From Paenibacillus sp. Soil787 (GTDB taxonomy: Bacteria; Bacillota; Bacilli; Paenibacillales; NBRC-103111), in assembly GCF_001429545.1 (NCBI RefSeq), contig NZ_LMSP01000012.1, positions 576,555 to 640,554 of the forward strand: a stretch of DNA of 64,000 nucleotides. The letters are read 5' to 3'. This document shows positions 6,654 to 6,803 of this stretch, piece after piece. A model generated the notes under the pieces. It was not told the origin of the DNA, searched no databases, and was given only the letters and a program-made list of their open reading frames with translations. The translations under genes were made by a program, and so were the position numbers. How positions within the stretch are numbered: the stretch's first letter is position 1; each line of letters opens with the position of its first letter.

Positions 6654-6803
6654 GCCTCCTAAGAGTTTTGCTTTAGCAAAACTGGCATCGTAAGCATTAA
6701 CTGAGTTTTGCTTTAGCAAAACTGGCATCGTAAGCATTAACTGAGTTTTGCTTTAGCAAAACTGGCATCGTATGCATTCGCAGGTTTTCTGTTAGTAAAA
6801 CCA
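6654..6803 (-). repeat. Tandem array of SD-linked palindromic repeat ahead of pyrR
   Basis: Three near-identical 40-base units start at 6663, 6703 and 6743, each with the palindrome AGTTTTGC-TTTA-GCAAAACT (6664-6683, 6704-6723, 6744-6763) and the tail ggcatcgtaagcattaact. A degenerate fourth copy (gttttctgttagtaaaac) fills 6784-6801. The array lies between the attenuator terminator and the pyrR start, and its pyrR-proximal end provides the AGGAGG. Confidence 0.95.

Follow-up and report, generated by a model that had tools for sequence, protein, structure and literature searches.

The window, by which the whole 64-kb stretch of DNA analyzed here is meant, contains nine hairpins of the AGTTTTGC/GCAAAACT type, one at carB, three at pyrR, one at a divIVA-like gene, three at sigE and one at rsmH (Table 1). 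Seven of the nine match the pattern AGTTTTGCNNNNGCAAAACT, with a 4-nt loop, as compared to 0.68 expected, and seven or more matches were found in none of 100 shuffles. Loops of 3 and 7 nt are found in the other two hairpins (divIVA and the first sigE copy). RsmH, SigE, PyrR, and the large subunit of carbamoyl-phosphate synthase are recognized by profile matches above the curated cut-offs, and the divIVA gene by a match to a DivIVA-type model that is under the cut-off of that model.

An earlier note on this DNA had described the nine hairpins at these genes, together with a degenerate fourth copy at pyrR and a remnant at lspA. All of these are present, with corrections to several details, but the list was incomplete. 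The upstream unit of the divIVA array was missed, and there are far more copies genome-wide. The statement that every copy is on the minus strand holds for the listed copies, whose genes are on this strand, but not for a diverged copy on the plus strand. The latter precedes a plus-strand ORF (7714-9438), and the orientation of the element therefore tracks the gene rather than the strand. A second degenerate hairpin is located just 5' of this plus-strand unit. The copies had also been placed between genes, which is not the case at carB. The unit there supplies the final codons of the ORF upstream (2322-3506), the TAG of which overlaps the Shine-Dalgarno sequence (SD). It lengthens the C-terminal end of this ORF, as though the element had extended the protein.

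Table 1. Copies of the repeat in the 64-kb window. E values refer to R1, a covariance model built from 27 units with the SD included, matches to which are no evidence on SD placement.
Feature	Positions	Strand	R1 E value
pyrR, terminal unit: linker GCTTACGATGCC, hairpin 6664-6683, SD AGGAGG at 6655-6660	6655-6695	minus	2e-15
pyrR, two inner units (6696-6735, 6736-6775): hairpins 6704-6723 and 6744-6763, without SD	6696-6775	minus	
pyrR, degenerate fourth unit: GGTTTTACTAACAGAAAACC hairpin, adjoining the PyrR attenuator match (6800-6977)	6776-6802	minus	
carB, single unit: linker, hairpin 2326-2345, SD GGGAGG	2317-2357	minus	
divIVA-like gene, two-unit array: terminal hairpin 20547-20565, upstream stem AGCTTTC/GAAAGCT at 20578-20605	20538-20605	minus	
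sigE, three-unit array (26053-26072, 26093-26112, 26133-26155), 3' of a 307-aa ORF	26044-26155	minus	
rsmH, single unit: hairpin 47065-47084, GTG start	47056-47096	minus	
lspA, remnant: linker AAGCTTACGA (15991-16000) joined to AAACTATTAGGAGG, 5' arm lost	15977-16000	minus	
ORF 7714-9438, diverged unit: hairpin CGTTATAC/GTAAAACG with one mismatch, and the SD of the ORF	7667-7708	plus	6.7e-5

Each unit consists of a fixed linker, ATGCTTACGAWGNN, and a 7-8-bp hairpin of variable sequence. A gene carries between one and six tandem units, and the end of the last hairpin is 2-3 nt from the SD of the gene. A script requiring a stem and an SD found 60 terminal units in the genome, 58 of which have a start codon and form the strict site set. 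The gap between hairpin and SD is 2 or 3 nt at 56 of these 58 sites (the script permitted 0-5), and the gap between SD and start codon is 5-12 nt (3-14 permitted). The hairpins are mostly 17-20 nt long, with stems mostly of 7-8 bp, and the stem can have any sequence provided that its arms pair. Among the stem types, each with its complement, are AGTTTTGC, AGTTTTCC, AGTTTTC, AGCTTTGC, AGTTTTAC, AATTTTCC and AGTTTGT; the counts of stem types include loci L041-L120, which were selected by a GC stem together with an SD and are thus biased in stem type. The same loci are included in the adjacency counts (see below) and in those of the array period, which is 36-44 nt and mostly 39-40 nt.

The linker is strict over about 12 nt. 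Its consensus, G-N-N-N-A-T-G-C-T-T-A-C-G-A-W-G-N-N, is based on 94 of 106 units, which were selected by the linker with at most one mismatch. In this profile, every position of GCUUACGAWG except W (nine of ten) carries at least 1.5 bits. As a control, 24 sites were picked by hairpin, SD, and start codon without reference to the linker. The consensus ATGCTTACGAWG holds at these sites as well, with counts out of 24 of A 22, T 17, G 21, C 22, T 22, T 20, A 22, C 19, G 24, A 22, W 24, and G 23. A clear linker is absent from three of them (L024, L027, and L033). The G-A step located 5 nt 5' of the stem has G at all 24 linker-blind sites and A at 22; for the linker-chosen units the numbers are 93 and 91 of 94.

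A leader peptide was considered, for which the ATG of the linker would open a 12-codon reading frame that ends with a TAG inside TTAGGAGG. A frame starting with ATG, GTG or TTG and stopping after 12 codons is present in 11 of 27 strict terminal units. In seven further units, however, no stop follows a start-like codon for at least 40 codons, and the frame is not kept because hairpin length and array period (36-44 nt) vary. The leader peptide was rejected as a general explanation for this reason and is hardly credible. An intrinsic terminator was also rejected. In the arrays that were read, what comes after the hairpins is not a U tract but sequence resembling CTTAGGAGG or CAGNNATGC.

Two patterns that are blind to the SD were used to locate copies in the 7.66-Mb genome. 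There are 43 copies of the palindrome TTTTGCNNNNGCAAAA and none of its reversed control. All 43 palindromes are oriented, 24 running into an SD and a start codon and 19 into the linker of the next unit; in this test the start codon had to open an ORF of at least 50 aa, and one strand sufficed. The linker-and-stem pattern TACGANNNNAGTTTTN{2,9}AAAACT has 64 occurrences, with none for its reversed control, and 38 of these run into an SD and a start codon, 25 into the next unit, and 1 directly into neither. The placement is therefore non-random with respect to ribosome-binding sites and strands (63 of 64 and 43 of 43 SD-blind sites oriented), as the earlier note had proposed. At the exceptional site, the unit is followed by two copies of the hairpin GACTTTGAGC/GCTCAAAG, and then by TTAGGAGG and an ATG about 80 nt downstream.

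The two tandem hairpins at the exceptional site (L355; G000 C34, ~246170-246260) represent a second kind of hairpin repeat, GAGACTTTGAGC-loop-GCTCAAAGATCCC. A similar hairpin in the reverse direction, GGGATCTTTGATC..GATCAAAGTCTC, is found before the rsmH gene of G018 (L292), which is without the unit.

To the earlier note, the SD looked like part of the repeated unit, with the copies running into AGGAGG. The last unit of an array does so, but the inner units are followed by CAGNNATGCTTACGA, which belongs to the next unit, and conservation of the repeat stops before AGGAGG. GGAG is present in just 2 of 47 inner spacers, one of which is a terminal site that was mis-assigned since its gene starts ATGGCATACGAT, and 9 of the 47 contain any NAGG. 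Some of the 43-nt arrays (for example L028, CTAAGGTTAAT) seem to carry a duplicated edge of the SD. Among 59 terminal units found with no SD requirement, at loci partly obtained through R1, 54 have [AG]GGAG directly. The remaining five comprise two apparent chance matches, two GGGGG-type sites, and one TTGGAG slightly further downstream.

The segment between SD and start codon is specific to the gene and is kept with or without the hairpin. For rsmH it is AGGAGGACAYCAA-like in the 25 genomes with the hairpin and the 5 without. For sigE it is AGGAGGAAACTAAC in 22 of 26 genomes with the hairpin and in 2 of 4 without. For pyrR it is mostly AGGAGGCG-like, both in the 15 genomes with the hairpin and in the 14 without, one pyrR having no SD match. 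These similarities indicate that the element was placed, or arose, 5' of a pre-existing SD. The SD belongs to the gene, and its membership in the repeat is not supported.

Of the 58 strict sites, 44 have a co-directional ORF upstream, 9 have one in the opposite direction, and 5 are unassigned, based on plain ORF calls in which the longest ORF was preferred over the nearest. Of the 44 co-directional ORFs, 31 are within 130 nt of the unit (two overlap it), and the other 13 are more than 300 nt away and are doubtful. The products downstream have unrelated roles. Twenty of them were profiled (from 19 of the 58 strict sites, plus HslU), namely NAD kinase, PurQ, HslU, RuvB, AccC, glycerol-3-phosphate dehydrogenase, LeuD, PyrF, RecJ, a BioF/Kbl-type acyltransferase, the small subunit of glutamate synthase, NusB, L24, a SucB-like acyltransferase and NuoI, together with the products of five genes in the window. 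This broad gene set favors a general mRNA device over a pathway switch.

A search with R1 through the whole genome and its relatives, as the earlier note had suggested, finds the element far beyond the window; in the window's own genome, the loci other than the pattern sites were obtained in this way. In the genus, all 30 genomes have matches at an E value of 0.001, from at least 7 to at least 142 per genome, these copy numbers being lower bounds because the best 150, 57 or 20 candidates per genome were scored. Matches are found in 103 of 104 genomes of the family and in 251 of 296 genomes sampled from the order (E 1e-4). The genomes with matches are from families f1, f2, and f10. Among 20 of the 45 negative genomes that are listed, one is from f1 (G030) and the others are from f3-f9 and f11. 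A scan of public genomes for the exact core gives at least 109 stretches, and among the 80 loci listed 78 are named Paenibacillus, the other two being MAGs named Bacilli and Paenibacillaceae. The exact core pattern with the SD was not found in viral contigs, and a phage origin was rejected.

The age of the element was assessed at orthologous junctions, which were chosen in the 30 genus genomes by protein search, independent of the element. An intact terminal unit, defined as a linker and a stem of at least 6 bp, is present in 26 of the 30 genomes at sigE, 25 at rsmH, and 12 at pyrR. A pyrR hairpin of at least 6 bp against the SD is found in 15 genomes if the linker is not demanded, and pyrR of several species has apparent remnants without the 3' arm. 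The element has thus been gained and lost at the same gene between species. In one genome (G026), rsmH is split into two matches, one of them with a stop codon read through.

At rpmJ, the position is shared across families. A stem of at least 7 bp is located 1-3 nt before the SD in 12 of 16 genomes from f1, f2, and f10, with diverged letters, as compared to none of 8 genomes from other families; shuffled upstream sequence attains 7 bp in 1-9% of trials. The hairpin is kept without a linker match in G102, G139, G151, and G224. The genome of the window and G018 are among the four of the 16 without such a stem; their hairpin is located further upstream, with a hairpin-less linker before the SD. 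In one of the 8 genomes from other families, G110 (L350), a 6-bp hairpin abuts the SD of rpmJ. This genome is from a family without model matches (f8), and the hairpin habit at this gene may predate the linker.

A recent insertion is not supported by these junctions, as the sigE and rsmH positions are common to most of the 30 genus genomes and that of rpmJ extends across families. The repeat is a conserved, old cis-acting RNA element of the order, found at the same genes in many species.

Some of the matches in other genomes depart from the common form. In f10, the 8-bp stem is kept but the loop is enlarged to about 28-31 nt at L310, L312, and L307. Look-alikes with the AGCTTTCC stem in genus g35 (L316 and L325, G231) are not at an SD and are situated within a longer repeat, GGCGAACGCT..CTTCTCCAGATTCAAATG. 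They are perhaps a separate dispersed repeat.

Covariation in the stem was analyzed with two sets of junction units. The genus set contains 59 of the 61 distinct sigE, rsmH, and pyrR units, the two omitted having lost most of the stem; 20 of the 90 junctions, without linker or SD, never entered as rows. In this set 97.5% of the cells are paired, as compared to 91.2% in shuffles, and 25 cells are changed on both sides, as compared to 5.9 (none of 500 shuffles as high). Pairing falls to 36-54% when the partner is shifted by 1-3 columns. The number of pairs with a double change (2) and the number of pair types (8) are not above the shuffles of this set (479 and 149 of 500 as high, respectively). 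The second set has 77 rows, comprising all 61 genus units and all 16 rpmJ rows of f1, f2, and f10, chosen by protein alone. Here 94.2% of the cells are paired, double-sided changes are found at 5 of the 8 pairs (9 of 500 shuffles as high), and there are 38 double-change cells (0 of 500) and 17 further pair types (1 of 500). On these 77 rows, compensatory changes in the helix exceed chance.

Within an array, units are more alike than they are between sites, with 4.3 of 7 free positions shared as compared to a mean of 2.7 of 7, which indicates that arrays grow by local duplication. Neighboring units often differ in their stems: 65 of 138 adjacent pairs have identical stems, as compared to 35 of 43 pairs of next-but-one units (P 0.002, by permutation inside 30 arrays of at least 3 units; as arrays and orthologs share descent, this value and the covariation shuffles overstate independence). 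This alternation is partly explained by duplication of a dimer (L022). Identical pyrR units are predicted to pair with one another instead of locally, which fits selection for separate local hairpins. The folding of single-unit junctions is not more stable than that of shuffles (z -0.86 and -0.47); the two-unit divIVA junction has a z of -1.13, and longer arrays are somewhat more stable (-1.9 to -2.7).

A functionless, REP- or MITE-like mobile repeat, which lands or is tolerated just before SDs, would produce many similar copies, tandem growth, and gain and loss between species. It would also suit the copies within an ORF end (carB) and away from an SD (one each), and a slight excess of site pairs with at least 6 of 7 free positions alike (37 as compared to 23 expected, P 0.008). 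The single orientation of the copies with respect to genes is against this explanation, however, as are the age of the sigE, rsmH, and rpmJ positions, the covariation of the stems, the differences in free positions between sites as opposed to within arrays, and the absence of the exact core with SD from the viral contigs. A mobile repeat is therefore very improbable. Recent copy-and-paste between genes was rejected, the free positions differing between sites and the excess of alike pairs being slight. Some old copying between sites, or the presence of subtypes, is possible from this excess.

The earlier note had suggested that the hairpin affects translation or RNA decay, and this is judged the best reading. 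The form of it that we favor is tentative and has slightly less than an even chance of being correct: the unit would be a processing or stabilizing cassette that also insulates the SD, and would provide its gene, often one inside an operon, with a stable translation start of its own. In the safest step, pairing beside the SD would hold it clear of other structures. The linker, with its G-A step 5 nt before the stem, may then be the entry site for an endonuclease of the RNase Y type. The 5' end produced by the cut would be guarded against RNase J by the hairpin together with a ribosome bound at the adjoining SD, and the downstream cistron would outlast the upstream one. Extra tandem units would contribute more cut sites and shields. 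The pairing, spacing, orientation, and age of the element are all observed and support this mechanism, as do the 31 co-directional upstream ORFs within 130 nt. Counting against it are the carB unit, which is inside the upstream ORF and would be traversed by ribosomes, the rpmJ hairpin of the window's genome and of G018, which does not abut the SD, and the presence of an intact pyrR unit in only 12 of 30 genomes. The unremarkable folding of the single-unit junctions also counts against it, as do the two of five covariation measures that are not above shuffles in the genus set.

According to a study in B. subtilis (PMC11780869), RNase Y prefers a G-A step with a downstream structure, and the cggR hairpin shields the processed product from RNase J1. 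The consensus reported there is weak, with U preferred at -2/-3, and the -1 G in cggR has no significant effect (PMC11780869). The S. aureus enzyme favors a G before the cut and cleaves the sae mRNA at a site 6 nt 5' of a stem; its ruler does not take the start of the duplex as the point of reference (PMC11321564). In the units described here, there is a G, generally as a G-A step, a few nt before the stem-loop. The preference for U at -2/-3 is not observed, as C is present at -2 in 19 of 24 sites and A at -3 in 22 of 24, within a long and strict consensus.

As the linker is far stricter than the RNase Y motif and lacks the U at -2/-3, a specific factor remains a live rival. A sequence-specific RNA-binding protein or toxin-type endonuclease could read AUGCUUACGAWG, with the genes forming a global post-transcriptional regulon. 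The strictness of the linker, upheld at the 24 linker-blind sites, would follow directly, the tandem units look like multi-site binding, and the taxon-limited range could mirror that of a lineage-specific factor. Such a regulon is nonetheless improbable, given the unrelated roles of the 20 profiled proteins and the gain and loss of the element at the same gene between species.

A pure translation-initiation element without cleavage, is the other rival. In this reading, the hairpin stacked against the SD would serve as insulator or standby module, and the linker would contact the 30S subunit or a translation protein. The tight spacing of 2-3 nt between hairpin and SD is in its favor, as is the mixed set of housekeeping genes, for which regulon logic is unnecessary. 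Moreover, linkers have decayed at some rpmJ sites, those of the four genomes without a linker match, but the hairpins stay, which suggests that cleavage is not needed everywhere. On the other hand, this explanation accounts for neither the strict linker nor the inner tandem units. Pairing of the linker to the 16S rRNA of the genome was rejected, as its best runs of 8-9 pairs are equalled by shuffled linkers. We consider a role in translation only to be somewhat unlikely.

A broader form of the processing cassette is also proposed, and is less likely than not. The element may be an order-wide, sequence-flexible cassette that punctuates operons, in which a dedicated ribonuclease or RNA-binding factor would read AUGCUUACGAWG in many transcripts and cut or bind there, and the SD-abutting hairpin would make the downstream cistron independently translated and stabilized. 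The length of the array (1-6 units) would tune the level.

The repeat is not among the known families of structured RNA that were searched. With Rfam release 15 at the gathering threshold, no family matches a unit in the 64-kb window, and only a T-box and the PyrR element reach the threshold. The overlap of the PyrR match, from 6800, with the degenerate fourth unit is limited to the last 3 bases of that unit. Both elements are ordinary: the PyrR attenuator (RF00515) is on the minus strand directly 5' of the pyrR array, and the T-box (RF00230, 19733-19981) is on the minus strand 5' of a 925-aa ORF. More permissive Rfam scans of the pyrR and sigE arrays give only sub-threshold matches, mostly to unrelated families. 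No description of the repeat was found in the full-text literature that was searched, the coverage of which leaves out most subscription journals and preprints.

The unit shares properties with several known systems. As in the RNase Y sites of B. subtilis cggR-gapA and S. aureus sae/gapR, there is a single-stranded G-A a few nt before a stem-loop, before the next cistron, and the pairing of the stem matters. In contrast to those sites, the unit is a fixed cassette, repeated in tandem, with about 58 strict sites in one genome; its 12-nt linker is strict, its hairpin is directly against the SD, and its cleavage is putative. In Bacillus, 5' mRNA stabilizers (SD/STAB-SD and 5' hairpins such as those of hbs and ermC) shield the message against RNase J by a structure or ribosome at its 5' end. 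To our knowledge, the stabilizers of the hbs and ermC type are single-gene elements that belong to no common sequence family. The unit would resemble them in having a structure or ribosome near a 5' end, but it is a dispersed sequence family. REP, BOX, and bcr1 elements are short, palindromic, and mostly intergenic, with many copies and tandem units. The unit has these features as well, and differs in its strict orientation, SD spacing, orthologous conservation, and covariation. It is also a structured RNA before genes, like the cis-regulatory leaders in Rfam (PyrR site and T-box), although it matches no Rfam family. The repeat is classified here as a new variant among cis-acting mRNA elements, and neither as an RNase Y site nor as a REP or MITE.

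The finding places a structured RNA at the ribosome sites of core genes, including sigE, rsmH, pyrR, carB, rplX, nadK, ruvB, and nusB, as well as rpmJ in many relatives. If the order-wide cassette is correct, it would amount to an evolvable module of general use by which protein ratios are set, a type without a prior description in the literature searched. The orthologs with and without the element, and the arrays of one to six units, are natural replicates for testing an SD-abutting hairpin and upstream processing, and they bear on the control of translation and mRNA half-life inside operons. The element could also serve as a part for expression design in Paenibacillus.
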